Below, piece after piece: positions 2,118 through 25,527 of a stretch of DNA of 61,739 nucleotides. A program made the translations under genes and the position numbers. Where the stretch lies: contig JAGRPN010000267.1 of the NCBI GenBank assembly GCA_019449555.1, positions 1 to 61,739 on the forward strand, given 5' to 3'. The notes beneath the pieces are model-generated. The model had not been told where the DNA came from. It was given only the letters and a program-made list of their open reading frames with translations, and made no database searches. Each line of letters starts with the position of its first letter. Within the stretch, counting starts at the first letter, position 1. The DNA is from Ramlibacter sp. (GTDB lineage: Bacteria; Pseudomonadota; Gammaproteobacteria; Burkholderiales; Burkholderiaceae_C).

Positions 2118-3078
2118 TATTCGCCGCCTTCGCGACGGCCGTCCACTTCGCAATGTCCGCGGCGATCACCCGCGAAAATTCTTCCGGCGTGCTGCCGACC
2201 GGGTCCACGCCGAGCGTGGCGAACCGCTCGCGCACATCGGGCAGCTTGAGCACACGCACGATCTCTTCGTGCAGCCTGCGGATGACGGGCTGGGGCGTGC
2301 CGGCCGGCGCCAGCAGGCCCGTCCACAACTCGATGTCCATATCCTTGAAGCCCGCCTCGCGCATGGTCGGAACGCCCGGCCAGGCCGGATGCGCGGCCGG
2401 CGTCGTGATCGCCAGCGCCCGCACCCTGCCGGCCTTGAACTGGCCGACCACCGGCGGCGGGTCGGCCAGGGTCATGGTGATTTCGCCGGTGGCGACCGCA
2501 TTGACCGACTCGTTGCTGCCCTTGTACGCGATGTGCTGGAATGCGGTGCCGGTCTTCTGCTTGAACAGTTCGGCCGCGAGCTGGAACGGCGCCGCGCTGG
2601 CACCGTAATTGGCCTTGTCCGGATTGGCCTTGGCGTATTCGATCAATTGCGCAACCGACTTTGCGGGGTGCGACTGTCCCACGACGAGGATCAGCGGGAA
2701 CGAGCCGACCAGCGAAATCGGCGCGAAGTCGCGCAGCGGCGAATAAGGCAACTTGCTGTAGAGCGCCGGGTTCATCGACACCGGACCGCTCGGCCCCAGC
2801 AGCAGCGTGTACCCGTCGGGGTTGGCCTTGGCGACGTATTGCGCCGCGATGATCGATTGCGCGCCGACCTTGTTCTCGATCACGACCGGCTGCCCGAGGC
2901 CCTCCGCCATTTTCGCGGCGATGATCCGGGCGAGCAGATCGGTGCCGCCGCCGGGCGCATACCCGACGATCAGCTGGATCGGCTTGCCGGGATAGGGTGC
3001 CTGAGCCTGCGCTGCGGTGGAGGCAAGCACCGCGGCCGCGACGGTGACGATGCCGAACAACGCTTTCGTGAATCGCAT
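2104..3078 (-). CDS. Bug/TctC-family periplasmic substrate-binding receptor (orphan)
   Basis: A 324-residue secreted receptor of the tripartite tricarboxylate transporter type. The first 25-27 residues form a signal peptide ending in AQA. The mature part starts YPGKPIQLIVGYAPGGGTD, the typical Bug opening, and the family's Ca-x-Cb pocket features follow. The ATG at 3078 is preferred over the longer frame to 3336 because it follows AGGAG and begins the signal peptide. No tctA or tctB lies nearby, as is usual for expanded Bug families in Burkholderiales. It is last in a minus-strand run with the ThDP enzyme and aldehyde dehydrogenase, which hints that its ligand is their substrate; the ligand is unknown. 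Confidence 0.92.
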   Translation of the reverse strand: MRFTKALFGIVTVAAAVLASTAAQAQAPYPGKPIQLIVGYAPGGGTDLLARIIAAKMAEGLGQPVVIENKVGAQSIIAAQYVAKANPDGYTLLLGPSGPVSMNPALYSKLPYSPLRDFAPISLVGSFPLILVVGQSHPAKSVAQLIEYAKANPDKANYGASAAPFQLAAELFKQKTGTAFQHIAYKGSNESVNAVATGEITMTLADPPPVVGQFKAGRVRALAITTPAAHPAWPGVPTMREAGFKDMDIELWTGLLAPAGTPQPVIRRLHEEIVRVLKLPDVRERFATLGVDPVGSTPEEFSRVIAADIAKWTAVAKAANIKAD

Positions 3079-3133
3079 GACGAGTCTCCTTCGGTGTCTG
3101 GCGGCTTTGCGCCGCTCTGGGGTTGCTGATCGT

Positions 3134-4855
3134 TCAAAGCCGCGTGACGCGCGCGCACAGGACGGCGGCCCGGCCCGCGTCGATGGCGGCCACGCAGCGC
3201 CCGATCGCGGCGCCAAGCCGGTCGGGATCATCGACGGTTTCCGCGTGCGCGCCGAACGCGGCGGCGACCTGCGCGAAATCGCGCCGCTCGCCCTCGAGCC
3301 GCGCCTGGAACTCGTTGGACGCGGCAGCGGCGCCATCCGGATACACGCGCAGCACGGCCTCCTTCACTGCCTGCCAGCCGCCGTTGTCGAGGACCACGGT
3401 GAAGATCGGCAGCCGGTATTGCTGCGCGATAGCGTAAACCGCCGTGGGACTGGAAAAATGAAAACCGCCGTCGCCGACGACCTGCACCACCCGCCGGCCG
3501 GGCCGCGCCAGTTTCGCGCCGAGCGCCATCCCGCCGCTGAATCCGAGGCCGCCGCCCGCGAGGCCGATGTAGCTGCTCGGCCGGGTGCGCCGGATCTGGT
3601 TCAACACCGCAAAGTTGTTGCGGATGGCTTCGTTGACCAGGATGTCGTCCTCGCCCAGCACCTCGTTCAACGCCGCGCAAACGAAATCCGGTGAGATCGC
3701 ACCGACGCTGCCCGGCTGGCCCGCGGCCGCGGCGATCCGCTCGCGGCGCTGCGCCCGCTGCGGCTCCCAGCCCGCGATGCGCTGGGCCACTCGCGCGCGA
3801 TAGGCGTCGTCGGCCCGCGCGCGGACGATCTCCAGCACCTGGGCGAGCACCGTGGCGCAGTCGCCCTGGACTCGCAGCTCGCTCGGGAAGCCCCACATCG
3901 GGAAATCCTTCTTGATCGCATCGACATCGACCTGGATCCAGGCGAGCGACGGATTGTCGGGGACGTACTTCGGCAGCCACGGCACATCGACGTCGAGCAA
4001 CAAGCCCACGTCGGCCTGCGCGATCGCCGGGCCGGGGTCGTAGCCGGCGAAGCACGGAGAATCGCGCGGGATGCTCAGGCAGTGTGGGCTGGACTCGAAG
4101 ACGCGGATGCCGCACTCGCGCGCGAGCGCGTCCAGCACGCCGACCGCTGCCGGCTTGCGGCCGAGGTACGCCGTGACCGCGATCGGATCGCGCGCGGCCA
4201 GCAGCCGCTGGGCGATCTGCCCTGCCATCGCTGTATCCACGCCGCCGCCGTTCACCGGGCCGTAGCGCTCCGCGGGGAAACTGCGGATCTGCGATTCGTC
4301 CCAGTCCTGCGCCAGCGTTTCGCGCGGCAGCGTCATGAACACCGGCCCCGGCGGGTCGCTCTGCATCACGGCGTGGCCGCGCCGCAGCGCTTCCTTGGCA
4401 ACGACACCCGAAGGCAGCGTGTACTCCCATTTCACGTAAGGCCGCACGAGGCTGCCGAGATCGAACGGGTCCTGCACGAAATGCACGTAGTTGTCGCGCG
4501 AGCCCGGCAGCTCGCCATGGATCGTGTGGGGCGCCTTGCCCGCCAACAGGAACACCGGCAAGCGCGCCCGGAACAGGTTGTGCAAGGCCATGGCCGAATT
4601 GGCCGTCCCGGCATCGACATGGACCATGACCGCCTGGCCCCGGCCCGTCATCGCCGCATAGCCGCCCGCCATGTGCACCGCCACGTTCTCGTGCGGGCAC
4701 AGCACCATCGCCGGATGCGCGCGGCCGTCGCGCTCCCACTGGGCTAACGCCTCGATCAGCGACACATGGTCGGTGCCGAGGTTGGAGAAGACATGTTCGA
4801 TGCCGGCTTCGACCAGTCCCTCGAGAAAGAAATGAGCGGTGGAATGCGCAGCCAT
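3134..4855 (-). CDS. Thiamine-diphosphate-dependent enzyme, acetolactate synthase/benzoylformate decarboxylase superfamily
   Basis: The 573-residue product has the three-domain layout of ThDP enzymes. Glu56 in CPHENVAVHMAGGYAA matches the glutamate that activates the thiazolium cofactor. The C-terminal PP domain carries the metal/diphosphate motif GDGGF at 461-465, ending with Asn491. Superfamily members decarboxylate 2-oxo acids or condense them. The next gene upstream, 13 bp away, is an aldehyde dehydrogenase, so decarboxylation of a 2-oxo acid to an aldehyde is a reasonable inference. A housekeeping acetolactate synthase is less likely because no small subunit (ilvH) is present. The exact substrate cannot be read from the sequence. 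Confidence 0.88.
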   Translation of the reverse strand: MAAHSTAHFFLEGLVEAGIEHVFSNLGTDHVSLIEALAQWERDGRAHPAMVLCPHENVAVHMAGGYAAMTGRGQAVMVHVDAGTANSAMALHNLFRARLPVFLLAGKAPHTIHGELPGSRDNYVHFVQDPFDLGSLVRPYVKWEYTLPSGVVAKEALRRGHAVMQSDPPGPVFMTLPRETLAQDWDESQIRSFPAERYGPVNGGGVDTAMAGQIAQRLLAARDPIAVTAYLGRKPAAVGVLDALARECGIRVFESSPHCLSIPRDSPCFAGYDPGPAIAQADVGLLLDVDVPWLPKYVPDNPSLAWIQVDVDAIKKDFPMWGFPSELRVQGDCATVLAQVLEIVRARADDAYRARVAQRIAGWEPQRAQRRERIAAAAGQPGSVGAISPDFVCAALNEVLGEDDILVNEAIRNNFAVLNQIRRTRPSSYIGLAGGGLGFSGGMALGAKLARPGRRVVQVVGDGGFHFSSPTAVYAIAQQYRLPIFTVVLDNGGWQAVKEAVLRVYPDGAAAASNEFQARLEGERRDFAQVAAAFGAHAETVDDPDRLGAAIGRCVAAIDAGRAAVLCARVTRL

Positions 4856-4868
4856 CGCCCGGATTCTG

Positions 4869-6311
4869 CTACGTCTCGAAGTAGAAGTGCTTGGTCTGCA
4901 GGAAATCGTTCAGGCCTTCGATCCCGTGCAACTTGCCATACCCGCTGTCGCGGTAGCCGCCGGTTTCGGCTTCGGCGAACAGGCGGTTGTGCGAATTGCA
5001 CCAGACCGTGCCGAAATTCAGCCGCGTCGCGATGCGGCGCGCTCGCGCCGAGTCCTGCGTCCAGACGCTGGAGGCCAAGCTGTAGCGCGTGGCGTTCGCG
5101 CGGCGGATCGCGTCTTCCTCGTCCTGGCAGCGCTCGATGACCAGCAACGGCCCGAACAATTCCTGCTGGATGAAGGGCGACTGCAGGTTTTCGACCGCCA
5201 CCAGGCTCGGCTGGATGAATGCGCCGCGTGCGAGTTCGCCGCCGGGGATCGCGCCGCGCAGCAGCAATCGCTCGTCGCGTTGCGCGGTGTCCACGAGGCC
5301 GTCCATACGGTCGCGATTGAGCCGGTCGATGAGGCAGCCCATCTGGGACTGCGGGTCGTTGCCGAGACCGACCCGCACGGCCTTCAGCGCCTCGATGAGC
5401 CGCGCGGAGAACGTTTCATAAAGGCTTTCCTGGACCAGCACGCGTGTGATGGCGGTGCATTGCTGGCCGGCCAGGACCAGGGCGCCGGCGACGACGCCGT
5501 TCACCGCTTTGCCGAGGTCGCAATCCTCGAACACCAGGGCCGGCGCCTTGCCGCCGAGTTCCAGCGACAGCCGCTTGAGCGTGCCGGCCGATGCCTGCGC
5601 AATCAATTTGCCGACCTTCGACGAGCCGGTGAAACTGATGACGTCCACGTCCGGGCTCTCGCACAGGAGGCGCGATACGTCGGTGCCGGACTCGATGACG
5701 GAATTGACCACCCCGCGCGGCAGCCGCGGATCGGTCACCAGGCACTCGAGCGCCAGGTCATGGGCCATCGCGGTCTGATGCGCCGGCTTGAGCACGACGC
5801 TGCATCCCGCGGCCAGGGCGGGTGCGAGCGAGCGCACGAGCAGGGTGATCGGCGCATTCCAGGGCAGGATGATGCCGGCCACGCCGGCCGGTTCGCGCTC
5901 CAGCGACGAGTAGCAGCCCGGCTCCACCTCGAGGATGCGCCCGTACAGCGTGCGCGCCAGCCCGGCGTAATAGCGCAGTTCCGACACGCCGGCCATGATT
6001 TCGCCGATCGCTTCCCGGCGCAGCTTGCCGTTGAGCGTCACCAGCCAGTCCGCGATCGTGTCTTTCCTTGCTTCCAGCCGAGACGCGAATGCAAGCAGGA
6101 TGTCGGCGCGCAACCGCGGCGTGTGGCGCCAGGTGGTCTTGTCGAAAGCGTTCCTTGCCGCATGAATGGCGGCAGCTGCCTCAGCGGTGCCGCCGTTCGC
6201 ACAGCGGGCGGCGGGTTCCGCAGTGGCGGGGTTCAACGCCTCGCCGCATGCCGCGGTCCCCCCGGGCCCCGCGAGCCACTCGCCATCGATGTAATGTCGT
6301 GCTGTCTGCAT
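4869..6311 (-). CDS. NAD(P)-dependent aldehyde dehydrogenase
   Basis: This 480-residue aldehyde dehydrogenase oxidises an aldehyde to the carboxylate. The catalytic cysteine is Cys285 in AGQQCTA, the general base is Glu251 in LELGGK, and FTGSSKVGK marks the cofactor fold. The start at 6311 (MQTARHYIDGEW) is chosen because GGAGAAGCC precedes it and the family normally begins at this point; the open frame extends to 6383. It is followed 13 bp later by the ThDP enzyme and preceded 34 bp earlier by miaB on the same strand. Substrate unknown; context suggests the aldehyde made by the ThDP enzyme. Confidence 0.93.
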   Translation of the reverse strand: MQTARHYIDGEWLAGPGGTAACGEALNPATAEPAARCANGGTAEAAAAIHAARNAFDKTTWRHTPRLRADILLAFASRLEARKDTIADWLVTLNGKLRREAIGEIMAGVSELRYYAGLARTLYGRILEVEPGCYSSLEREPAGVAGIILPWNAPITLLVRSLAPALAAGCSVVLKPAHQTAMAHDLALECLVTDPRLPRGVVNSVIESGTDVSRLLCESPDVDVISFTGSSKVGKLIAQASAGTLKRLSLELGGKAPALVFEDCDLGKAVNGVVAGALVLAGQQCTAITRVLVQESLYETFSARLIEALKAVRVGLGNDPQSQMGCLIDRLNRDRMDGLVDTAQRDERLLLRGAIPGGELARGAFIQPSLVAVENLQSPFIQQELFGPLLVIERCQDEEDAIRRANATRYSLASSVWTQDSARARRIATRLNFGTVWCNSHNRLFAEAETGGYRDSGYGKLHGIEGLNDFLQTKHFYFET

Positions 6312-14577: not shown

Positions 14578-14586
14578 CTGCGCTCT

Positions 14587-15003
14587 TCAGCCGCGCGGCT
14601 TGAAGGCGGGAATGGTGCGTCCGTCGGCCGCCTCGATGAAGGTCACTTCGAGCGGCATGCCGCACTGGATCGCCTGCGGCTCGGGCTTCACCCCGACGAG
14701 GTACGTCATCATGCGAGGACCCTCGCGCAGCGTGACCAGCGCCGTCACGAACGGCACTGCCTCGCGCAGTTCGCGAATGCCGGTGTGGTGATGGATGCAG
14801 AACGAGTACAGCTCCGCGTGTCCGGACGCGCGCACCCACTCCAAGTCGCGCGAACCGCAACTCGGGCAGACGGAGCGCGGGTAGAAGAAGTGGCAGCGGC
14901 AGCCGCGGCAGAACGGAAGCATCAGCTCTTGCCGGCTGGCCGCATCCCAGAAGATGGCGGCATCGGGGCTGGGCGACACGACAGGTCGAGGCGTCTGGGT
15001 CAT
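14587..15003 (-). CDS. DUF35 OB-fold/zinc-ribbon protein, partner of the thiolase-like protein
   Basis: The 138-residue protein has the two-part DUF35 structure. The N-terminal rubredoxin-like zinc ribbon carries CRGC and CPSC, twelve residues apart, and an OB-fold follows. In known systems DUF35 proteins assemble with thiolase-fold enzymes and help bind or pass CoA substrates, for example the ChsH2 DUF35 domain with Ltp2 aldolase. Here the start lies two bases after the stop of the thiolase-like gene, so the two are almost certainly co-expressed and likely form a complex. It is last in a three-gene minus-strand operon. Confidence 0.9.
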   Translation of the reverse strand: MTQTPRPVVSPSPDAAIFWDAASRQELMLPFCRGCRCHFFYPRSVCPSCGSRDLEWVRASGHAELYSFCIHHHTGIRELREAVPFVTALVTLREGPRMMTYLVGVKPEPQAIQCGMPLEVTFIEAADGRTIPAFKPRG

Positions 15004-15005
15004 GG

Positions 15006-16160
15006 TCACGTCCTTGCGAGGATGGCTGTGGCGGCGCTCGACAGATAACCGCCCATGCCGTTGACGAGCGCGGTCTGCGCATTGGGGACTTGGCGCGGCC
15101 CGCATTCGCCGCGCAACTGGCGCACCGCTTCGATCATCAGGTACATGCCGAACATGCCCGGATGGTTGTAAGACAGGCCGCCGCCGCTCGTGTTCAGCGG
15201 AAAATCCCCGCCGGGTGCGGTCCGCTGCCCGGACACGAACTGGCCGCCTTCGCCCTTGGCGCAGAACCCGAGGTCCTCGAGCGTGACTAGCACCGTATAG
15301 GTGAAGGAGTCGTAGAGCTGGACCACGTCGATGTCGGCCGGATTCAGCCCCGCCTTCGCGAAGACCTCCGCGCCTGTGATGCGGGCCGGCGTTTCGGTGA
15401 GGTCCGGCATCTGCGTGATCTGGTAATGGCTGGTGGCCACTGCGGACGCCAGCACCTCGACCACCGGCACGCCGAGCTCCCGGGCGCGGCGGGCGCTGGT
15501 GAGCACGACGGCGCCGCCGGAGTCGGTCACGAGGCAGCAGTCGTTCAGGTGGAACGGGTACACGAGCCACGGCGAATTCATGACGTCGTCAATCGTGAGC
15601 GGCTCACGGCTGAATGCCTTCGGGTTAAGCGCCGCCCACTTGCGCGTAGCGACCGCGATTTCGGCCAGCTGCGCGCTCGTGGTCCCGTACTGGTGCATGT
15701 GGCGCGTCGCCGCGAGCGCATACGCGGCCGGGGGCGACTCGACGCCGTATACCCGTTCCCATTGCCAGTCGGGCATCCACGGGTCACCGTGGGTGGGGCG
15801 TGCCTGGACGCCGCGCTTGCGGTTCGAGCGGCGTGTCTCCCCGTGCGTGATGAGTGCCACTTCGCACGCACCGGCCTGGATCGCCTGCACCGCCTCGTGC
15901 AGGTGCGCCACGAAGGACGATCCGCCGATGGAGTTGCTGCCCGAGATTTTCGGCGTGATGCCGAGGTATTCGGCCACGAGCAGGCTGGGCATGAAGTCCA
16001 CCCCGCAGGTGAAGAGCGCATCCACGTCGCGTAGCGTCAGGTTCGCATGCGCCAGTGCATTCGCCGCGGCCTCCGCGTGCATCTGCATCGCATTCTTGTT
16101 TGGCACGACGCCGATCTGGTCCGCCTCGGCGGCGCCCACGAGCGCGACACCCGTGCTCAT
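15006..16160 (-). CDS. Thiolase-fold protein lacking catalytic cysteines (Ltp-like, probable CoA-thioester retro-aldolase)
   Basis: The 384-residue protein matches the SCP-x/lipid-transfer thiolase family, but both thiolase cysteines are absent. The nucleophile position reads GGSSF (81-83) and the C-terminal CxGxG motif reads NGMGG (367-371). Tyr283 in QLYDSFT, Tyr331 in GGLSYNHPGM and His333 are kept. Their spacing resembles the two catalytic tyrosines described for the steroid side-chain aldolase Ltp2. With its DUF35 partner encoded directly after it, a retro-aldol lyase role is more likely than a thiolase; this is an inference. The start overlaps the upstream enolase-superfamily stop by four bases (ATGA). 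Confidence 0.85.
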   Translation of the reverse strand: MSTGVALVGAAEADQIGVVPNKNAMQMHAEAAANALAHANLTLRDVDALFTCGVDFMPSLLVAEYLGITPKISGSNSIGGSSFVAHLHEAVQAIQAGACEVALITHGETRRSNRKRGVQARPTHGDPWMPDWQWERVYGVESPPAAYALAATRHMHQYGTTSAQLAEIAVATRKWAALNPKAFSREPLTIDDVMNSPWLVYPFHLNDCCLVTDSGGAVVLTSARRARELGVPVVEVLASAVATSHYQITQMPDLTETPARITGAEVFAKAGLNPADIDVVQLYDSFTYTVLVTLEDLGFCAKGEGGQFVSGQRTAPGGDFPLNTSGGGLSYNHPGMFGMYLMIEAVRQLRGECGPRQVPNAQTALVNGMGGYLSSAATAILART

Positions 16161-17320
16161 GACTCGGACCGGTAACGGTTGATGTACTCCCAATCCAGCT
16201 CGAGGCCCAGTCCGGGCCCCTGGGGGACGGAGTAATAGCCGCCGTCGAAGGGCCGGCGGTTGGCGATGATGTTCCAGAAGATCGGATCGCGGTCCGGGTC
16301 GAACGTCTCGACATAGGTGCCGTGGGGAATGGACGCGAGCAGGTGGGCCGAAACCTGCGGCTCTTCGTGGTGACCCATCTGCACCTCGTACGCCGAAGCG
16401 ATTGCGGCGACGCGCCGCCACTCGCTCGGGCCGCCGATCCAGCTGGCATCCGCGTTGCAGACATCGATCGCGCCGGAGGCGATCAGGTCGCGCTGGCCGG
16501 CGCGCGTCGATTCGCTCTGGCCGGCAGCCACCGAGATCGGGGCGGACAGGCGCACGTCGCGCATCGAGAAACGGTCGTTCAGCCACTGGCAAGGTTCCTC
16601 GAACCAGCGCAGGTTGACGTCCGACGTGGCGCGGGCGAACTGGATCGCCTGCTGGCGCGTGTAGCCCTGGTTGGCATCGACCATCAGGACGAAGTCGTCG
16701 CCGGCCGTCTTGCGCGCCAGCCGCGTGCGGCGGGCATCGACCTCGGGCGAGCGGCCGCCGACCTTGAACTTGCAGCCGCCGAATCCCAGGGTCATGTAGT
16801 TCTCGATCTGCCGCACGACATGGGCGTCTTCGTCGCCTTCGTCGCTGTAATAGCCGCCGATGCAGATCGCCTGCAGCCGGTCGCGGTAGCCGCCCCACAA
16901 CTGGAACAGGGGAACGCCCAGCGCCTTGCCGAGCAGGTCCCACAGCGCCGTGTCGACGCAAGCCATCGCCTGCAAGGACATCGAGCGGTCGCGCAGGATG
17001 TCGTAGGTGGAAGGAAGCATTGCCTCCCACGCGCCCTCGATGTTCAATGCCGAGCGGCCCAGCAGGTTCGGGGTGATCTCGTCGGTGAGGATGCGCACGA
17101 TGGTCGACTGCTCGGCGTCGGTGTCCCCGTTGTAGGCTTCGCCCACGAGGCCGCCCGCGGTGTACACGCGCGTGACGATCGTGCAGCGCGACGTCATCGA
17201 GTAGTGGCTGCCCTTGAACCGCTTCTTGAGTGGAACCCGCACGGGTGTGATCTCGATTCGTTCGATCTTGAGGTCCGCCGGGTTCAGGCGTGCCGCCGTG
17301 GGCGCTTTCATCGTAGTCAT
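16157..17320 (-). CDS. Mandelate racemase/muconate lactonizing enzyme-family protein
   Basis: The 387-residue protein is an enolase-superfamily enzyme. The capping domain is followed by a barrel with the Lys pair KFK (Lys184, Lys186). Candidate metal ligands are Asp215 (VDANQG), Glu241 (WFEEP) and Glu270 (GQSES), and a His pair sits at 317-318 (GHHEEP). These enzymes abstract a proton next to a carboxylate and catalyse racemisation, dehydration or cycloisomerisation; which one cannot be told here. The start at 17320 follows GGAGACCT. It leads an operon with the thiolase-like and DUF35 genes and lies next to a GntR regulator, so its substrate is probably a carboxylic acid of the same pathway. 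Confidence 0.9.
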   Translation of the reverse strand: MTTMKAPTAARLNPADLKIERIEITPVRVPLKKRFKGSHYSMTSRCTIVTRVYTAGGLVGEAYNGDTDAEQSTIVRILTDEITPNLLGRSALNIEGAWEAMLPSTYDILRDRSMSLQAMACVDTALWDLLGKALGVPLFQLWGGYRDRLQAICIGGYYSDEGDEDAHVVRQIENYMTLGFGGCKFKVGGRSPEVDARRTRLARKTAGDDFVLMVDANQGYTRQQAIQFARATSDVNLRWFEEPCQWLNDRFSMRDVRLSAPISVAAGQSESTRAGQRDLIASGAIDVCNADASWIGGPSEWRRVAAIASAYEVQMGHHEEPQVSAHLLASIPHGTYVETFDPDRDPIFWNIIANRRPFDGGYYSVPQGPGLGLELDWEYINRYRSES

Positions 17321-17425
17321 AGGTCTCCAGGAGTCAGGGGGATAAGCGAGCCGCAGGGGCCCGGGTACGGGCGCTCCTCACCGGCCACTCGGGATTCAAC
17401 GCTGCACGCGGCTACCCTCGCGCGT

Positions 17426-18256
17426 TCATGAATTGCTGCCGGCGCTCCTCGGCTTGCGGGCGCCGCGGCGCGGTGCCCGCAGATCGGCCTCGAACCGGTC
17501 GAAGCTCACGTGGGCCATCACCAGGCGCTGGGCCTGCGCGACATTGCGCGACCGCAGTGAAGCGAGGATCGCGCGGTGCTCGCTGTGCCACTCGGCGTAG
17601 CGGCTCACGCTCGCCTTCAGGCCGCCCGACAGCGACCGCCAGGCATCGCGCAGCATCATCTCGATCTCGTACAGCCATGAATTCCCGGTGATCTCGATCA
17701 GCGCGAGTTCGAATTCAAGCGGCTCCCACACGTAGGTGGGGTCTTTCCTCATTTGCTCGGCTTGCTGTTCGAGCAATTGCTCGAGCCGGTCGAAATCCTC
17801 GTCGGAGGCACGCTGGGCCACCGCGCTCACGACCGCCATCTCGATGCCGACGCGGGTCTCGACCAGGTTGCGCAGCGCGTTCTCTTCGGTGGCGTCGAAG
17901 ATCGCCGAAGACGATGCTTTCCATGCTGCGGTCGGAGCAGCGACGTAAGTGCCGTCGCCATGCCGCACTTCCACCAGGCCGAGCGTGGACAGCACCCGCA
18001 TGGCCTCGCGCAGCGAAGAGCGGCTCACCTTCAGCTGCTCGATGAAGTAGCGCTCCGGTGGCAGCTTCTGCCCCGGTTGAAGTTCGTTGGCCACGATGTA
18101 TGCACGGATTTCATGCACCACCCGTTCGGCCACCCTGCGTTCCGGAACCGTGCGAAGGGCGGACGTCTGATGTGGGTCGACGGCAGGAGTTTCCATGGTG
18201 CGTTTTGTGTCTCCGCTGGCCGGGCGAAATGCGCGTGAGACGGCAGGTTTGTTCAT
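17426..18256 (-). CDS. GntR-family transcriptional regulator, FCD (FadR) subfamily
   Basis: The protein has an N-terminal winged helix-turn-helix (PGQKLPPERYFIEQLKVSRS, then LREAMRVLSTLGLVEVRHGDGTYV) and an all-helical FCD ligand domain after about residue 115. FCD regulators typically sense small carboxylates and repress nearby catabolic genes. The start is uncertain. ATG at 18256 gives 276 residues; ATG at 18196 and TTG at 18295 are alternatives without a better ribosome site. It stands between two catabolic gene sets, the minus-strand enolase-superfamily operon and the plus-strand dehydrogenase/ABC operon, and probably controls both. Confidence 0.92.
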   Translation of the reverse strand: MNKPAVSRAFRPASGDTKRTMETPAVDPHQTSALRTVPERRVAERVVHEIRAYIVANELQPGQKLPPERYFIEQLKVSRSSLREAMRVLSTLGLVEVRHGDGTYVAAPTAAWKASSSAIFDATEENALRNLVETRVGIEMAVVSAVAQRASDEDFDRLEQLLEQQAEQMRKDPTYVWEPLEFELALIEITGNSWLYEIEMMLRDAWRSLSGGLKASVSRYAEWHSEHRAILASLRSRNVAQAQRLVMAHVSFDRFEADLRAPRRGARKPRSAGSNS

Positions 18257-18455
18257 AACGCAAGTAGAATACCGTACAAAGGTCTGATAAGTCAACCTTG
18301 CATCTTTGAAAATTGCATGGTAATCTGACGTCTGACCTTAGTAGCCATCAGCGCCTAGACATTGCCGGCGATGAGGTATTTTGGTTCGGACGTAGGATGT
18401 CTGCCCGCATTGGACCTGATGCGCGGCAATTCGAACACTAGTGGAGACAAGAGCA
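18257..18455. promoter_or_regulatory. Divergent promoter region of the GntR regulator and the dehydrogenase/ABC operon
   Basis: About 200 bp with lower GC than its surroundings. It contains AAGGTCTGATAAG (from about 18278) and, in the opposite orientation, TCTGACCTTA (18330-18340 region). Inverted AAGGTCWGA motifs of this kind resemble half-sites of FCD-type GntR regulators. No convincing -35/-10 pair could be fixed by eye. Confidence 0.4.
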
Positions 18456-19358
18456 GTGTTGAACTTCATGGACAGGTCTCGCGGCGTGAAACTTGTGGTG
18501 ATCGGCGCGGGCACGATGGGCCGCGGCATCGCGACCGTGGCCTTGCAAGCCGGACTGGGCACGACGATCGTCGATCTCGATCCGGCGGTGCTCGAAGATG
18601 CGCGGCAAGCCATCGAGCGGCGCGTGACGCGCGGCCGCAACGCCGATTCGACCGATGCGCTCCCACCCTCCTTGCGACTGAGCACCGATTTGCGCGCGGC
18701 GTTGGGCGATGCGGATGCCGTGATCGAGGCGGTGCCGGAGGTGCGCGATCTCAAGCGCGCCGTGTTCGGCCAGGTTCGGGAGTTCGCGCCAAAGCGCGCC
18801 CTGTTGGCTACCAATACGTCGACCATGAGCGTATCGGAGCTGGCGGAGGCGTGCGATGGGTCTGCCCGCGTGATCGGCATGCACTTTTTCAATCCGGTGC
18901 ACCGGATGGCCCTGGTGGAAATCGTCGTCGGCAACGGGACCAGTGAACAGACGAAGGCCGACGCCATTGCGCTGTGCGCGCGCCTCGGCAAGGAGCCGAT
19001 CGTCGTGCGGGACGTTCCCGGGTTCGTGACCAGCCGGTTGGGACTCTTGCTCGGGAATGCGGCCATGCGCCTGGTCGAAGACGACGTAGCGTCCGCGGCC
19101 GACGTGGACAAGGCCATGCGCCTGGGCTACGGCCATCCCATGGGTCCGCTGGAACTCGCGGACCTCGTCGGGCTCGATGCGCGATTGAACAACCTGCGCA
19201 GCATGTTCGCGCGTTCCGGCGACCCGCAGTACAGCCCGCCCGCGATCCTCGAGCGCATGGTGGAGGCAGGCCGGCGCGGCAAGAAAAGCGGCACCGGCTT
19301 CTACGACTACGACGAGCAGGGGCGCCGCGCCCCGTCCACGCAAGGCCTGGCGTCTTGA
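18456..19358 (+). CDS. 3-hydroxyacyl-CoA dehydrogenase
   Basis: This NAD-dependent enzyme oxidises 3-hydroxyacyl-CoA to 3-oxoacyl-CoA. The Rossmann motif GAGTMGRGIA lies near the N-terminus. The catalytic His is in MHFFNPVHRM with the paired Glu in LVEIV, and the C-terminal dimerisation domain ends GRRGKKSGTGFYDY. About 300 residues is normal for a stand-alone enzyme. The start is chosen as GTG 18456, nine bases after GGAG; ATG at 18468 would also fit the family. First gene of a five- or six-gene operon with an ABC importer, a CoA-transferase and a crotonase. Confidence 0.9.
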   Translation: MLNFMDRSRGVKLVVIGAGTMGRGIATVALQAGLGTTIVDLDPAVLEDARQAIERRVTRGRNADSTDALPPSLRLSTDLRAALGDADAVIEAVPEVRDLKRAVFGQVREFAPKRALLATNTSTMSVSELAEACDGSARVIGMHFFNPVHRMALVEIVVGNGTSEQTKADAIALCARLGKEPIVVRDVPGFVTSRLGLLLGNAAMRLVEDDVASAADVDKAMRLGYGHPMGPLELADLVGLDARLNNLRSMFARSGDPQYSPPAILERMVEAGRRGKKSGTGFYDYDEQGRRAPSTQGLAS

Positions 19359-19390
19359 CGTCGCGCTGACCAGAAGTTCCAGGAGCGGCA

Positions 19391-20254
19391 ATGACCACAT
19401 CAGTCCATACGGGGCGGATCGATCCGCCTGCGCAACAGGGCCGCGGCAGCATCGATATCCGCGGCGTCTCCAAGCTGTACCGGCGAGCGGGCAGTCCCCC
19501 GGTGCAAGCCTTGTTGCCCGTCAATCTCTCGATCGCGCCCGGCGAGTTCGTGAGCCTCGTCGGGCCCAGCGGATGTGGCAAGACGACGCTGCTCATGATG
19601 CTGTGCGACCTGCTCGACCCGACCACCGGAACCGTCCTGATCGATGGCCGGCCGGTGCTGGCGGCGGACCCCACCGTCAGCATTGCATTCCAGAAGCCGA
19701 CGCTGCTGCGCTGGAAAACCGTGCTGGATAACGTGCTGCTGCCGGCCCGCATCATGCACAAGCTGGACGAGGGCGCGCGACGGCGCGCCGATGAACTGCT
19801 GCAGATTACCGGTCTGAACGCGTTCAAGGACCGCTATCCGCACGAACTCTCCGGGGGCATGCAGCAGCGCGCGTCGATCGTGCGGGCGCTGGTCACCGAT
19901 CCGAACGTGCTGCTCATGGACGAGCCCTTCGCGGCGCTGGACGAATTCACCCGCGATCTGCTGAACGACGAGCTGCTGCGGCTCTGGACGAATCGCAGGA
20001 AAACCGTGGTCTTCGTCACACACAACATCAGCGAGGCGGTGTACCTGTCCGACCGCGTCGTGATCATGGCGCCCCGCCCCGGCCGCGTCCTGGACGTGAT
20101 CGATATTCCCGTGCCGCGTCCCAGGCGCGCGGAGATGCGGGACGACATCGAGTTCATGCAGGTCGTGCGAAGGATACGGACCTCGCTGAACGACTCGTCC
20201 GGCCCGACGGCGGGCGAAACGAAGCAGCCTGCCCTCGTGGAGGAGCAATCCTGA
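19391..20254 (+). CDS. ABC transporter ATP-binding protein (nitrate/sulfonate/taurine type)
   Basis: The 287-residue ATPase energises the adjacent permease. Walker A is GPSGCGKTT (58-66), the Q-loop FQKPT sits near 100, the signature LSGGMQQR is at 153-160, Walker B reads LLMDEPF (174-180), and the H-loop is VTHNISEAV. It belongs to the SsuB/TauB/NrtD group, whose importers take up sulfonates, nitrate, taurine, pyrimidine precursors or aromatic acids. The start follows AGGAGCGGCA, 32 bp after the dehydrogenase. The stop overlaps the permease start by one base. Confidence 0.94.
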   Translation: MTTSVHTGRIDPPAQQGRGSIDIRGVSKLYRRAGSPPVQALLPVNLSIAPGEFVSLVGPSGCGKTTLLMMLCDLLDPTTGTVLIDGRPVLAADPTVSIAFQKPTLLRWKTVLDNVLLPARIMHKLDEGARRRADELLQITGLNAFKDRYPHELSGGMQQRASIVRALVTDPNVLLMDEPFAALDEFTRDLLNDELLRLWTNRRKTVVFVTHNISEAVYLSDRVVIMAPRPGRVLDVIDIPVPRPRRAEMRDDIEFMQVVRRIRTSLNDSSGPTAGETKQPALVEEQS

Positions 20255-21129
20255 TGATGACACTCGACTTGAAATCCGACCAGCCGGCGGCCGCGGTCAG
20301 CCCGGCGCCGCCGGTGCGGGCAGCGCGTCCCGAGCCGCTCGGCGTGCCTGCCGAGCCCGCGTTTCCAAAGGACCGCACCAAGGCGCTTGCCGTCGGCCTG
20401 GCCATTGCCATGGCGTGCGCCATCCTGGGCCTGTGGGAACTGGCGGTGACCCGCGAGTGGGTGTCGACCATCGTGCTTCCCGCGCCGGAAGAAGTCGCCG
20501 TGGCCGTCTATCAGGGGCTCGTCGCGGGCAAGGTGACCTGGTGGGGCGACATATGGACCACGTTGAGCGAGACGGTCATGGGCTTTGCCTGCGGCGTGAC
20601 GGTGGCGCTGGTGCTGGGCGCGCTGTTTGCATATGTTCCGGTGCTGCGGATGGCGGCGTACCCGTTCGTCGTGTTCCTGCAGACGTTCCCGAAGATCGCC
20701 ATCGCTCCCGTGCTCGTGGCCTGGCTGGGCTACGGCCTGCTGCCCAAGGTCGTCATCGGCGCGCTGCTCGCGTTTTTCCCCGTGTTCGCCAACACGGTGG
20801 CGGGCCTGTCGCAGATCAACTCCGACGAGGTCCGTCTCATGCGGTCCTTCGGGGCCACACGTTGGCAGGAGCTCCGGTTCCTGCGGCTGCCCAACGCACT
20901 GCCCTACATCTTCGCGGCGATGGATGTGGCCGTGGTGGTGTCGCTGCTTGGCGTGATCGTCGGCGAGTTCGTCGGCTCCGAGCAGGGCCTGGGCTACCGC
21001 ATCCAGGCGCGCACCGGCTTCGGCGACATGGCTTCCGTGTATGCCGTCCTGTTCATCCTCGGCTGCATCGGCACCGGGCTGCACCAGTTGATGCGCCTGC
21101 TCAAGTCCCTGGTCATTTTCCAGGAATAG
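20254..21129 (+). CDS. ABC transporter permease (SsuC/TauC type)
   Basis: The 291-residue integral membrane protein has a proline/alanine-rich cytoplasmic N-terminus of about 45 residues, then six likely helices. The EAA loop that docks on the ATPase is recognisable as EVRLMRSFGATRWQELRFLR. It matches the BPD transport (MetI-like) permease fold of the sulfonate/taurine/nitrate group. Overlap with the ATPase stop indicates tight coupling. The substrate-binding protein follows 41 bp later, preceded by its own ribosome site. Confidence 0.93.
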   Translation: MMTLDLKSDQPAAAVSPAPPVRAARPEPLGVPAEPAFPKDRTKALAVGLAIAMACAILGLWELAVTREWVSTIVLPAPEEVAVAVYQGLVAGKVTWWGDIWTTLSETVMGFACGVTVALVLGALFAYVPVLRMAAYPFVVFLQTFPKIAIAPVLVAWLGYGLLPKVVIGALLAFFPVFANTVAGLSQINSDEVRLMRSFGATRWQELRFLRLPNALPYIFAAMDVAVVVSLLGVIVGEFVGSEQGLGYRIQARTGFGDMASVYAVLFILGCIGTGLHQLMRLLKSLVIFQE

Positions 21130-21170
21130 GCAGAACTGCCTGTTCCCCTCGTTCACTGAAAGGAACACAC

Positions 21171-22292
21171 ATGTCACAGCACCGTGCTGGAAGAACCGGC
21201 AGTTTCCGGCGCCATATCCTGATCGGAACCTTCGCGCTCGCGTCGCTTGCGGGCAGCGGGCTGAGCCTGGCTGCCGACGCCGGCAAGGATGCCACTGCAC
21301 AGGCAGCCAAGCATGTCGTCTTCGCCGTCGGCAATCCCGCGCTCGCCGTGGACACGGCTCCCTACACGTCCGTGCCGGCTGCGATGAACTACTGGAAGGG
21401 CCTGGACGTGAAGGTCCTTGTCACGCAGGGCGCGATCCAGAATCTGCAGGCGCTGCTGACCGGCCAGGCGGATATCGCCAACCTCGGCATGTCCGCCATG
21501 TATTCGCTGGCGACCAAGCATCCCGAGCTACAGGTGATCAGCCTCGCCGCCGGCAACATCTGGCACACCGCGGTGCCTGATAACAGCCCGATCAAGACCG
21601 AGGCCGACCTCAAGGGCAAGACGATCGGGGTGCAGACCTTGACCTCGGCCAGCTTCCTGTATGGCCGTGCCGCGCTCGTGGGTGCCGGGCTGGACCCGGA
21701 CAAGGACGTGAAATGGCTGCCGGTCGGCGTCGGCGCCGCAGCGGCCAACGCGCTGAAGCAGCACCACATCGATGCGTACGCCAGTTACGACGGCCCCATC
21801 GGCACGATCGCGAATATTTCCGACACGCAGATGCGGGTCCTGCCCAGCGTGATGGATGACCAGCGTGGCACGTTGGGTCTGGTCACGACCAAGAAATACC
21901 TCGCAGCCAACCACGATACGGTGGTCGCTTTCCTGCGCGGCTTCAACGCAGGCCAGCACTTCGCCGCCTTGAACCCACTCGCGGCGGTGCAAATCCACTG
22001 GAAGGCGCACCCCGACCAGAAGCCGACAAACGTGGATGAGGCGAAAGCGATCAGGCAGGCCCTCAGCCTGGTCGAGACACGGTTCAAGGTGATGGACCAG
22101 CCTGGGACCAACGGCCTCGTCGGCTATCTCGACCCGCCGACGGTGCAGAAGTCGCTCGACTTCTTCTTCAAGAACGGCGTGATCGAGCACCCCCTCAAAG
22201 CAGCGGCCGTGACGGCCCTGGACGTGGCCAAGGAGGCCGCCCAATTCGACGCGAAAGCGGTGGAGCGCGATGCGAAGGAATGGGCGAAATGA
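21171..22292 (+). CDS. ABC transporter periplasmic substrate-binding protein (SsuA/NMT1-like)
   Basis: The 373-residue receptor has a signal peptide (arginine-containing N-terminus, then ILIGTFALASLAGSGLSLAA). The mature domain follows the NMT1/SsuA pattern: QNLQALLTGQADIANLGMSA, then DLKGKTIGVQTLTSASFLYG. The family binds sulfonates, nitrate, thiamine-precursor pyrimidines or aromatic and aliphatic acids, so the ligand cannot be named. AAAGGAACACAC precedes the ATG. The gene ends in an ATGA overlap with the CoA-transferase. That places uptake and CoA activation in one operon and suggests that the imported compound is a carboxylic acid. Confidence 0.92.
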   Translation: MSQHRAGRTGSFRRHILIGTFALASLAGSGLSLAADAGKDATAQAAKHVVFAVGNPALAVDTAPYTSVPAAMNYWKGLDVKVLVTQGAIQNLQALLTGQADIANLGMSAMYSLATKHPELQVISLAAGNIWHTAVPDNSPIKTEADLKGKTIGVQTLTSASFLYGRAALVGAGLDPDKDVKWLPVGVGAAAANALKQHHIDAYASYDGPIGTIANISDTQMRVLPSVMDDQRGTLGLVTTKKYLAANHDTVVAFLRGFNAGQHFAALNPLAAVQIHWKAHPDQKPTNVDEAKAIRQALSLVETRFKVMDQPGTNGLVGYLDPPTVQKSLDFFFKNGVIEHPLKAAAVTALDVAKEAAQFDAKAVERDAKEWAK

Positions 22293-23533
22293 CAGGTGCG
22301 AACAAGGCTGACGCGAAATCCGCCGGACGCGACAAGCTGCCGCTGGCCGGCGTGCGCATCATCGACTGCACGCACGCCATGGCGGGTCCGTATGCCACGA
22401 GCCTGATGGGCGACCTCGGGGCCGACGTCATCAAGATCGAGGCACCCTCGGGAGATTTCCTGCGCAAGATGGACCAGAAGCTCGCTCCCGCCGAGAGCAT
22501 CTACTTCCACAGCATCAACCGCAGCAAGCGCTCCCTCGGCCTGGACCTGAAGCAGCCCGCGGGCCGCAAGGTGCTGGAGGCGCTGCTCAAGGACGCCGAC
22601 ATCTTCCTGACCAACCTGCGTGTGTCGGCGGTCCAGAAGCTCGGCCTGGACTACGAGAGCATCGCCCGCATCCGGCCGGAGATCGTGTATTGCTCGGTCA
22701 CGGCGTTCGGCGAGACCGGCCCGCGCGCCGCGGAGCCCGGACTCGACCTTCTGGGACAGGCGGTGAGCGGCATCATGGGCATGACCGGCGAGCACGATGG
22801 GCCGCCGCTGAAGGCCGGCCCATCCATCACGGACATCGTGACTTCGTTCCTGCTGTGTTTCAGCGTGACAGCGGCGCTGCGCGGGCGCGACCGCGACGGC
22901 AAGGGCCAAAAGATCGAACTGAACCTGGCGGACAGCGGTTTTGCCACCATGCCCAACCTGGTGACGGAGTATCTGCATACCAAGGCGCCGATGCGGCCCT
23001 GGGGGAGCGGCCATCCGCAGGCCGTGCCCTACCAGGCCTTTCTCGCGCAGGACGGGTACTTCGTCCTCGCGTGCCTGTCGGACGAGATCTGGAAGAAGAT
23101 TTGCGACGCGATCGATCATCCGGCGATCACCCAGGACGAGCGCTATGTCAAAAACGTCGGCCGTATCGAGCACCGCAAGGAACTGGTGGATGCATTGCAG
23201 CGGCTATTCGCGACCGCACCGCGCGAGCGTTGGATGCAACCGCTGCGCCGGCTGGGTGTGCCCTGTGCGCCCGTCAACAACCTGGAGGACGCGGTCGCCG
23301 ATCCGCAGTTCAACCACAACGGCATGCTGCTCAAGATGGAGCATCCGGTGTTCGGCGAGTACACGGTCGTGAACAACCCGATCAAGTTGAGCCGCACCCC
23401 CGCGGCGCCGTTCGGCTATGCGCCGGCCATCGGCGAGCACTCGGAACAGATATTGACCGAAGCGGGATTCTCGCGCGAGGCGGTCCAGGACCTGTTCGCA
23501 AGCGGTGTCGTCGTCGGGCGAGGGCGTGTATGA
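22289..23533 (+). CDS. CaiB/BaiF family (class III) CoA-transferase
   Basis: The 414-residue enzyme moves CoA from one acyl-CoA to a free carboxylic acid. The catalytic aspartate is in PGLDLLGQAVSGIMG (Asp153), and the fold opens with LAGVRIIDCTHAMAGPYAT, as in formyl-CoA transferase and relatives. The start at 22289 is preferred because it overlaps the receptor stop (ATGA) and has AAGGA nine bases upstream; an ATG at 22280 is in frame. It probably activates the acid brought in by the ABC importer, using succinyl- or acetyl-CoA. Acceptor and donor are unknown. Confidence 0.93.
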   Translation: MTGANKADAKSAGRDKLPLAGVRIIDCTHAMAGPYATSLMGDLGADVIKIEAPSGDFLRKMDQKLAPAESIYFHSINRSKRSLGLDLKQPAGRKVLEALLKDADIFLTNLRVSAVQKLGLDYESIARIRPEIVYCSVTAFGETGPRAAEPGLDLLGQAVSGIMGMTGEHDGPPLKAGPSITDIVTSFLLCFSVTAALRGRDRDGKGQKIELNLADSGFATMPNLVTEYLHTKAPMRPWGSGHPQAVPYQAFLAQDGYFVLACLSDEIWKKICDAIDHPAITQDERYVKNVGRIEHRKELVDALQRLFATAPRERWMQPLRRLGVPCAPVNNLEDAVADPQFNHNGMLLKMEHPVFGEYTVVNNPIKLSRTPAAPFGYAPAIGEHSEQILTEAGFSREAVQDLFASGVVVGRGRV

Positions 23534-24366
23534 ACGGCGCGGCATCGGTCAAGACCGCGCCGGCAGCGACGATCAATGCTCCGCACGACGCCACCGCGAG
23601 CGAACCTCTCGCAGTGCTGCAGGAAGGAGCTGTCGATCGTCTCCTGATCAACTCTCCCGCGAATCGGAACGCGCTCTCGATCGCAATGATGGAAGGGCTG
23701 GTCGCCGCGATCGAGCGTAGTGCCCGAAGGTCGGCCCGCGTGCTGGTGCTCGATCACACGGGCGATGTGTTCTGCGCCGGGGTCGATCTCAAGGAACGGC
23801 TCGCGATGAAGGACGATCCGCATCGGCATTCGCAGCTGCTCGGACGGCTCCTGGCAGCGCTCTGGAACTACCCTTCACCCGTGATCTGCCGCATCGCCGG
23901 CCGGTCCCGCGGTGGCGGGATGGGGCTGGCGGCGTGCAGCGACATGGTCGTGTGTTCACCCGGCTCGGATTTCGCTTTCAGCGAGGTGCGGGTGGGCGTC
24001 GCACCGGCCCTGGTCGGCACCTTCAGCCTGGCGGGCATTTCCTCGCGCGCGCTGAAGCCGTGGCTGCTCACCGGTGAAAGCTTCGATGCCCGGGAAGCGC
24101 TTCGCTTGGGGCTGATCACGCGAATCGCAACCGACGATGCGACTTCGATCGATCCAGAGCTCACCGCATCGCTCAAAGGCGCCCCGGAAAGCCAGCGTGT
24201 CACGAAACGGCTGGTGCGCGAGCTCGCCGGTGAGGCGCCGGGGAATGCGCTGGCCGCGATGCAGCAGCTCTCGGCGGAATTGTTTGCCACCGATGAAGCA
24301 GCGGAGGGCATGGCAGCTTTCCGCGAGCGGCGCCCGCCGGCATGGGCCGCTGGCGGGTCGAGGTGA
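23530..24366 (+). CDS. Enoyl-CoA hydratase/isomerase family protein
   Basis: A 278-residue crotonase-fold protein with a 25-residue low-complexity N-terminal extension. The oxyanion-hole region CAGVDLKERL and the core GRSRGGGMGLAACSDMVV are present. The first catalytic glutamate is replaced (GGGMGL), while a glutamate remains in FAFSEVRVGVAPAL. Family members with only the second acid include methylglutaconyl-CoA-hydratase-like and other specialised enzymes, so simple fatty-acid hydration is not assured. ATGA overlap with the CoA-transferase makes it the last gene of the island operon. A GC-rich hairpin follows. Confidence 0.88.
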   Translation: MNGAASVKTAPAATINAPHDATASEPLAVLQEGAVDRLLINSPANRNALSIAMMEGLVAAIERSARRSARVLVLDHTGDVFCAGVDLKERLAMKDDPHRHSQLLGRLLAALWNYPSPVICRIAGRSRGGGMGLAACSDMVVCSPGSDFAFSEVRVGVAPALVGTFSLAGISSRALKPWLLTGESFDAREALRLGLITRIATDDATSIDPELTASLKGAPESQRVTKRLVRELAGEAPGNALAAMQQLSAELFATDEAAEGMAAFRERRPPAWAAGGSR

Positions 24367-24369
24367 CTT

Positions 24370-24391
24370 GGGCGGCGGCTGCCCGCCGCCC
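24370..24391. terminator. GC-rich hairpin between convergent genes
   Basis: A 9-bp stem (GGGCGGCGG, 24370-24378, with its complement at 24383-24391) and a CTGC loop sit in the 27-bp space between the crotonase stop and the DUF3108 stop. No T tract follows in either direction, so it may work as an imperfect or Rho-assisted terminator. Confidence 0.45.
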
Positions 24392-24393
24392 GC

Positions 24394-25527
24394 TCAGCGC
24401 TGCTCGATCCTGTCCACCATCAGGTCGACGTAAGTGCCTTCGCCCATGCTGACGCGGATGCGCACCGGCAGGTATTGCAGGCTGGGCGCGAACCACAGCT
24501 CCGCCGTGATGTTGCCGCGCGGATTCACGATGGTGCGTGGCTTGAGGTGGAACGCCTCGACCGCGCCGAGCTGTCCCGTCTGCAGCGTCTCGCGCTCGAC
24601 GATGTCGTAGGTCCACAGGTCGACGCCGCCGGGGCGCGCCATCCAGAAGCTCACGCTGCGCCCCACCTCCAGCCGGTCCTGCCCCGTGGCGAAGCGGTGG
24701 CTGAGTTCCACGAACTGGCTCGCCGTATCCTGCACGCCATCCGGGCGCGGCACGCGGCGGCCGTCCCCGAGCGTGATCGTTTCGTCGGCGAGCCGCACGG
24801 CGCGCGGGCCGCTGCGCCGCAACTCCTCGTAAGCCCGGGGGATCAGGCCTTGCGGCGCGACTTCGCCCTGGCTGGTCAACACCAGGCTGGCCAGCAGCGT
24901 GATGTCGATGTCGACGCGGGTCTCGTAGCGGTCCCCCTGGCGCAGCCATTGCACCCAGGCCGCCCCGTGCAATTCGCCGCTGCGGAACTGGCCGCCCAGC
25001 CGGTAGTTCAAGCGCGTGTCGACGGGCCAGCTGTCCAGCGCCGTGGCATCGGTGGCGGGCCCGGCCGACGGGGCCGCGTCGGCGGCAGCCGGAACCGGCT
25101 CGCTCGCCGGCGTGCTTGCAACCTCCGGCTCGCGCGGCGCCGGCGCGACTGTGTCGGCGCCTTCGGCGACCGGTGCCGGTGCTTCTCCGATCGGTTCGGA
25201 CGCGGCCGGCGAAGGCTCATCCGATGCGTTGGCCGCTTCCGATGCGGCCGGTGCGGGCGGTTTCGCGCTCGCCTTCGCGACGGCAGTGATGGCGTTGCGC
25301 CGTGGCCGCGCGGGTGCGGCCGCAACGGGCGCAGGCGCCGGGGGCGCGACGCTTTCCTGCTGGAGCAGCCGCGTGAACATCGGCGTGGCCAGCGGCCGCA
25401 GCAGGGTGACCTGCTGCAACTGCGTGGCGATCCACTCCAGCCCCGCCAGGTGCAACAGCAGCACGGCCGCCAGCAGGACCAGCAGCCGCGCGCCGGTGCC
25501 CCGCGTCAGGCGTGCGCCGCCAGCCAT
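24394..25527 (-). CDS. DUF3108 domain-containing protein, membrane-anchored
   Basis: The 377-residue product starts with a basic stretch and one hydrophobic helix (LLVLLAAVLLLHLAGLEWI), then a Pro/Ala-rich linker to about residue 165. A beta-rich DUF3108 domain follows, with LNYRLGGQFRSGELHGAA near its beginning. DUF3108 proteins are predicted periplasmic or envelope beta-barrel-like proteins without a settled function. Its start lies inside the end of the M61 peptidase gene (22-bp overlap), so the pair is translationally linked. Confidence 0.85.
   Translation of the reverse strand: MAGGARLTRGTGARLLVLLAAVLLLHLAGLEWIATQLQQVTLLRPLATPMFTRLLQQESVAPPAPAPVAAAPARPRRNAITAVAKASAKPPAPAASEAANASDEPSPAASEPIGEAPAPVAEGADTVAPAPREPEVASTPASEPVPAAADAAPSAGPATDATALDSWPVDTRLNYRLGGQFRSGELHGAAWVQWLRQGDRYETRVDIDITLLASLVLTSQGEVAPQGLIPRAYEELRRSGPRAVRLADETITLGDGRRVPRPDGVQDTASQFVELSHRFATGQDRLEVGRSVSFWMARPGGVDLWTYDIVERETLQTGQLGAVEAFHLKPRTIVNPRGNITAELWFAPSLQYLPVRIRVSMGEGTYVDLMVDRIEQR

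Follow-up and report, generated by a model that had tools for sequence, protein, structure and literature searches.

What does a compact set of ten genes, lying between two core genes of a Ramlibacter sp., do for its host, and can its parts be read as one pathway? The set lies in a stretch of 61,739 nucleotides (the window), where its ten intact genes fully occupy positions 14587-24366 and are arranged in two groups around a GntR/FCD transcription regulator. We read it as a horizontally spread catabolic module for one organic acid, in which uptake, an enolase-superfamily step, loading with coenzyme A (CoA), hydration and a retro-aldol cleavage would be encoded together and both operons would be under the GntR protein; the probability of this reading is in our estimate about 0.55. 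It builds on what the sequence itself holds, that is, the gene content, the co-conservation, the insertion, the blocks in the promoter region, the lost thiolase nucleophile and an aldolase-type tyrosine, and from these we infer every reaction, the order of the steps and the control by GntR.

The ten genes as one unit

All ten genes are also found in Allopusillimonas ginsengisoli, where neither their order nor their relative orientation differs. This locus (L007) was among the 33 obtained when genome contigs were scanned with the enolase-superfamily protein. Of the thiolase-fold, DUF35, dehydrogenase, permease, receptor and crotonase proteins, none had a relative in the remaining 32 at an expect value (E) of 1e-10, in a check that relied on exact 8-residue words and thus misses relatives, with several of the contigs being only 3-7 kb. 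Between the window and L007 the identity of the ten proteins ranges from 62.8% (DUF35) to 86.5% (thiolase fold), neither copy has internal stops, and nonsynonymous divergence (dN) is 0.10-0.31 with synonymous sites saturated or nearly so; all ten are intact and evolve under purifying selection. Frames next to the L007 block, judged by eye, resemble IS66 parts, a recombinase fragment and a group II intron maturase at one end, and at the other end a pair of IS3-type transposases.

In Ramlibacter the inserted island as a whole (14578-24393) is flanked by paaK, ending at 14577, and by a DUF3108 gene (24394-25527). The insertion site was compared in nine same-genus genomes, chosen from the 43 of 46 with a match to the DUF3108 gene (our own genome included). 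The two flanking genes are directly adjacent in six of the nine regions (L100, L102, L103, L104, L105, L108), the matched frames being 8-25 bases apart, and in one region (L106) paaK is absent from the corresponding position. The other two have inserts of their own at the junction, a different one of about 5.8 kb (L101, 7500-13300) and one of about 1 kb (L107, 4070-5060), so the site has been used repeatedly. The paaK/DUF3108 junction may be a hot spot for insertions. Judged from this comparison, the island arrived as an insert and is probably a horizontally spread module. None of the ten island proteins matched a transposase or integrase family in the Pfam search. The mean G+C content at third codon positions is 0.85 in the island genes and 0.89 in sixteen other, hand-picked genes of the window, a difference too small for the island to stand out by composition alone.

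The regulator gene lies on the minus strand (Pfam GntR and FCD), and its start is best read as giving 276 amino acids at 17426-18256, in preference to a TTG at 18295. In the 184 bases between it and the dehydrogenase gene, two blocks are operator candidates, AAAGGTCTGATAAGTCAA at 18278-18295 and TAATCTGACGTCTGA at 18321-18335. They are identical in the window and L007 at 18/18 and 15/15 positions (33/33 bases), compared to 27 of 61 bases in the rest of the compared stretch; the spacing between them is equal, and their distance from the GntR start differs by one base. The longest word common to both gaps is 18, compared to at most 11 in 300 mononucleotide shuffles, and GTCTGA is present in both blocks. 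When up to two mismatches were allowed, the second block matched the host genome once and its reversed control did not match it; in the Allopusillimonas genome block and control matched three times each, the promoter-region site being the block's exact match. A one-mismatch match in Allopusillimonas was rejected as a second target, as it lies inside a long frame resembling metH by eye. Because the blocks of the promoter region are conserved, both halves of the island probably answer to the GntR protein, although its binding we only infer.

The recurrence of the ten-gene block in Allopusillimonas, the shared promoter-region blocks and the clean insertion between two core genes together suggest that the genes behave as one unit across two distantly related bacteria. 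A preliminary description of this DNA had named all the gene families, including the receptor at 21171-22292, and Pfam finds each of them at its position; its proposal of one unit, probably serving one acid, is borne out by co-conservation, in one second genome only. Its expectation that the enolase-superfamily, thiolase-like and CoA-transferase genes would co-occur holds for Allopusillimonas, where the ten genes are together, but elsewhere the enolase-superfamily and thiolase-fold genes were found apart.

A thiolase fold without the nucleophile

The most interesting part of the island is the cysteine-less thiolase-fold family, represented by the protein encoded at 15009-16160 (minus strand; Pfam PF22691), a proposed retro-aldolase. 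In alignment, its Gly80 takes the position of the nucleophilic cysteine of the thiolase 7yvy (BbsB was left out of that stretch), and its motif YDSF corresponds to HDAF in 7yvy and BbsB, YDHF in Ltp2 (6ok1) and YDCY in Sal (9myr). The second thiolase cysteine is missing as well, but since it is likewise missing in the aligned 7yvy and BbsB, it is uninformative. Gly80, Tyr283, Asp284, Phe286, Thr287 and His-Pro-Gly-Met are invariant in all 37 distinct family rows; residue 285 is Ala in 30 rows and Ser in seven, as in the window protein (Ser285), and one row has Cys at position 81, adjoining the nucleophile position. The features of SCP2- and BbsAB-type thiolases are thus lacking, both the nucleophilic cysteine and the histidine of HDAF/HDCF, which is Tyr in 37/37 rows. 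Two features of Ltp2 and Sal are present, namely the catalytic-type tyrosine of the YDxF/Y motif (Tyr283) and a DUF35 partner of the ChsH2 kind, encoded by an overlapping gene; a third is absent, the residue after Tyr-Asp being neither the His of Ltp2 nor the Cys of Sal.

The presumed partner, a zinc ribbon with an oligonucleotide/oligosaccharide-binding (OB) fold (14587-15012, minus strand; Pfam PF01796 and PF12172), has ChsH2 (6ok1_B) as its best solved relative at E 5e-22, and BbsA is far weaker (E 7e-4). Of the 41 thiolase-fold family rows, 33 have a same-strand DUF35 gene no more than 400 bases away; three of the rows (L126, L127, L128) are second views of loci already counted, and the eight misses may be explained by long open frames. 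The pair therefore resembles the steroid side-chain retro-aldolases Ltp2-ChsH2 and Sal-Shy in the thiolase fold, the glycine at the nucleophile, the Tyr-Asp motif and the DUF35 partner, and differs from them in the third motif residue and in the His-Pro of the thiolase GHP motif, which is kept here and lost in both aldolases. In a 44-row tree its lineage also comes out as a separate one: the window and L007 proteins cluster with 4u4e and a pair of plasmid proteins (93/94), at a distance from Ltp2, Sal and 7yvy, all three of which are on long branches that make their placement unsafe. On the evidence of the motif, the protein is more likely than otherwise to be aldolase-like, and we claim no membership in the Ltp2 or Sal families. 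The aldolase-type ending suggested in the preliminary description gains support from Gly80 and YDSF.

Several points weigh against a retro-aldol cleavage. NCBIfam assigns the protein to PRK06158, 'acetyl-CoA acetyltransferase', at 484 bits against a cut-off of 421. In Sal the motif tyrosine is described as the catalytic base, as in Ltp2, and a Cys304Ser exchange as inactivating (PMC12329534); with Ser following Tyr-Asp in the island protein, the acid catalyst would have to differ. The tree, for what its long branches allow, sets the protein apart from both aldolases. Among nine regions read around thiolase-fold relatives (L118-L123 and L126-L128), the gene immediately before the thiolase-fold gene encodes a short-chain dehydrogenase/reductase (SDR) in L118 and L119 and a member of the 3-hydroxyacyl-CoA dehydrogenase family in L120; as the island too has a dehydrogenase, this would suit oxidation followed by thiolysis. 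The module as a whole is, moreover, known from two genomes only, the window and Allopusillimonas. In favour of the main reading, in the same nine regions a relative of the class III CoA-transferase was matched in five (L120, L121, L123, L126, L127) and a hydratase annotated or matched in six (L118, L119, L121, L122, L123, L126).

The dehydrogenases, the retained His-Pro (37/37 rows) and the NCBIfam label are what would be expected of ordinary beta-oxidation, in which the crotonase and the dehydrogenase would yield a 3-oxoacyl-CoA for thiolytic cleavage by the thiolase-fold protein and DUF35, as by the benzoylsuccinyl-CoA thiolase BbsAB. We consider this unlikely, though the best placed of the alternatives, because the nucleophilic cysteine is replaced by glycine in every row, Tyr stands instead of the HDAF histidine, and the DUF35 protein is far closer to ChsH2 than to BbsA. 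The likeness to BbsAB and the bbs pathway consists of a thiolase fold with DUF35 and a related class III CoA-transferase (157 bits), whereas BbsB carries HDAF and BbsA is remote. The benzylsuccinate pathway includes an acyl-CoA dehydrogenase, and by Pfam there is none among the ten island genes, the rest of the genome not having been searched for one. The preliminary description had spoken of beta-oxidation and of a complete pathway; the first does not hold in the strict sense, given the absent cysteine and the absent acyl-CoA dehydrogenase, and for the latter reason the second is unproven. The cyclic or branched substrate that it thought possible is unproven too.

It is also conceivable, with somewhat lower odds than beta-oxidation, that the island is a catabolic unit whose thiolase-fold protein is neither aldolase nor thiolase and catalyses, for example, a decarboxylation or a cysteine-free acyl transfer, the carbon-carbon step then being a different one. 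A third motif residue unlike that of Ltp2 or Sal and the family's own lineage in the tree would agree with this, but the family's Tyr-Asp, as in the aldolase motif, does not vary, and its DUF35 partner is ChsH2-like.

With retro-aldol cleavage as the preferred reading for the island, a wider proposal can be put forward tentatively, at odds slightly worse than even. The family may be a widespread and unrecognised third class of CoA-dependent retro-aldolases, marked by YD[A/S]F and HPGM, by a glycine in place of the thiolase nucleophile and usually by a DUF35 neighbour, whose members are annotated as acetyl-CoA acetyltransferases and would serve as an exchangeable carbon-carbon-cleaving unit of many acid-degradation modules; here it would close a new pathway whose opening reaction, on the free acid, falls to the enolase-superfamily enzyme.

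A proposed route from uptake to cleavage

The acid would be taken up by the ATP-binding cassette (ABC) importer, whose ATPase (19391-20254; Pfam ABC_tran), permease (20254-21129; BPD_transp_1) and NMT1/SsuA-like substrate-binding protein (21171-22292; Pfam NMT1, with NCBIfam SsuA_fam below cut-off) are encoded in succession on the plus strand. The receptor has no close solved relative (best 3qsl, E 1.4e-9), and the attempt to approach its ligand through structure was dropped, since the model from a two-row alignment had a mean predicted local distance difference test (pLDDT) score of 31.5.

The free acid would then be racemised, dehydrated or cyclo-isomerised by the mandelate-racemase-type enzyme of the enolase superfamily (16157-17320, minus strand; Pfam MR_MLE_N and MR_MLE_C). 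Mandelate-racemase-type members of this superfamily act on free carboxylates, and the step is therefore placed before CoA loading. K184, K186, D215, E241, D291, H318 and E338 are kept in all 38 rows of at least 40% identity, so both the KxK motif (K184, K186) and the His-Asp pair (D291, H318) are present throughout; the roles of these residues, and of an Asp/Glu/Glu set as metal ligands, are what we take them to be from the superfamily. At the supposed ligand positions D215 and E241 are kept, and Gln268 stands where Glu would be expected, with E270 two residues on, in 38/38 close relatives; 12 of 13 remote rows have Glu at this position. The nearest solved chains (4h83, 3no1 and 3msy, about 448 bits over some 370 residues) have molecule names without a specific function, and a literature search for these three structures found no paper.

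Relatives of this enzyme do not point to one substrate. In a 51-row tree the window and L007 proteins pair (100/100), the next by path being two Conexibacter proteins. A class III CoA-transferase cluster occurs in seven of the 34 neighbourhoods compared, and the actinobacterial ones among these seven have, by eye, also LacI-type regulators, E1-like pairs, SDRs and MmgE/PrpD. Reading a substrate from these neighbours was rejected, as they include sugar-type and other importers, lyases, a second enolase-superfamily gene and E1-like genes; since they point several ways, we name no substrate. A SAR202 study links many proteins of the enolase superfamily to the use of sugar acids (PMC10444878). Five loci (L124, L134, L135, L136 and L008) have a relative of 56-60% identity near a second, remote one (25-31%), mostly together with another importer, and this paired arrangement looks undescribed.

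The class III CoA-transferase (22280-23533, plus strand; CoA_transf_3, 418 bits, covering Pfam positions 1-366 of 366) would load the acid with CoA. Its nearest solved relative is a succinate--hydroxymethylglutarate CoA-transferase (293 bits, compared to 157 for benzylsuccinate CoA-transferase), and its Asp aligns with that of 9br7 in the TD motif, presumably the catalytic aspartate. Water would be added to the enoyl-CoA by the crotonase, a protein of the enoyl-CoA hydratase family (23530-24366, plus strand; Pfam ECH_1), for which 3oc7 and 4knp are the nearest solved chains and the isohexenylglutaconyl-CoA hydratase 4zu2 is sixth. The relatives of these two enzymes give weak hints of a dicarboxylic or branched acid. 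The thiolase-fold protein and DUF35 would cleave the resulting 3-hydroxyacyl-CoA, with Tyr283 as the base, and the 3-hydroxyacyl-CoA dehydrogenase (18441-19358, plus strand; Pfam 3HCDH_N and 3HCDH) would oxidise another hydroxyacyl-CoA intermediate. The GntR/FCD protein would control both operons via sites between them. On the minus strand the three enzyme genes share 4 bases at each junction, with 105 bases between the enolase-superfamily gene and the GntR gene, and the plus-strand spacings are in order 32, -1, 41, -13 and -4 bases.

That of the 33 enolase-superfamily loci only L007 has a thiolase-fold gene (several contigs being short) could suggest two unrelated operons side by side, one based on the enolase-superfamily enzyme and the other on the importer and CoA enzymes, but this is very improbable given that Allopusillimonas keeps all ten, identically ordered, around one promoter region with conserved blocks. 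A part of the phenylacetate pathway was rejected because most of the same-genus regions read have paaG and paaK but lack the island, and steroid degradation because the resemblance is limited to the aldolase-type pair, with no match to any further steroid gene family in Pfam.

Distribution and significance

In genome scans the ten-gene module is rare. Relatives of the receptor were found in none of 398 other genomes of the order at E 1e-50 and none of 368 other genomes of the class at E 1e-40, in scans that scored no more than 4 or 5 candidates from each genome, and its plasmid relatives are merely 31-34% identical. Relatives of the enolase-superfamily enzyme at 1e-125 occur in four of 268 genomes in the family of Allopusillimonas, that genome included, none of those outside the island copy being above 58% identity, and in three of 79 others in the relatives set of the window (48-49%). 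The order, class, family and relatives samples overlap one another. The thiolase-fold protein is commoner, with relatives in 36 of 398 other genomes of the order at E 1e-100 (best 53%) and in 88 plasmid records at 1e-80 (best 57.6%).

A literature search on the gene combination, judged from titles and abstract openings, found no description. In ibuprofen degradation the removal of propionyl-CoA from an acid already activated with CoA is ascribed to the thiolase-annotated pair ipfD/ipfE, a likeness by description only, and that pathway, as far as the source outlines it, differs in having a CoA ligase and a ring dioxygenase (PMC9195938).

Two further clusters were seen. Within the window, 8 kb from the island, a second accessory block (2104-6308) carries genes for an aldehyde dehydrogenase and for a thiamine-diphosphate enzyme (matching PRK08327 above its cut-off), together with a receptor-like gene; its flanking genes are directly adjacent in two same-genus regions (L100, L103), and it could feed the island. 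Plasmid p53363 of Bradyrhizobium guangxiense (L115) has a related importer, at 52% identity in both ATPase and permease, alongside a CoA-transferase, an enoyl-CoA hydratase family gene, MmgE/PrpD, a cysteine dioxygenase and a split thiamine-diphosphate enzyme, and is possibly another acid module.

The island offers a compact and movable system for tests, since 9.8 kb hold the importer and the activation, hydration and carbon-carbon cleavage steps, and the inducer of its single regulator would reveal the substrate. If the proposed reaction is true, many genes labelled as thiolases, such as the relatives counted above in the order and on plasmids, would carry the wrong reaction, and pathway reconstructions resting on the thiolase label would need mending.

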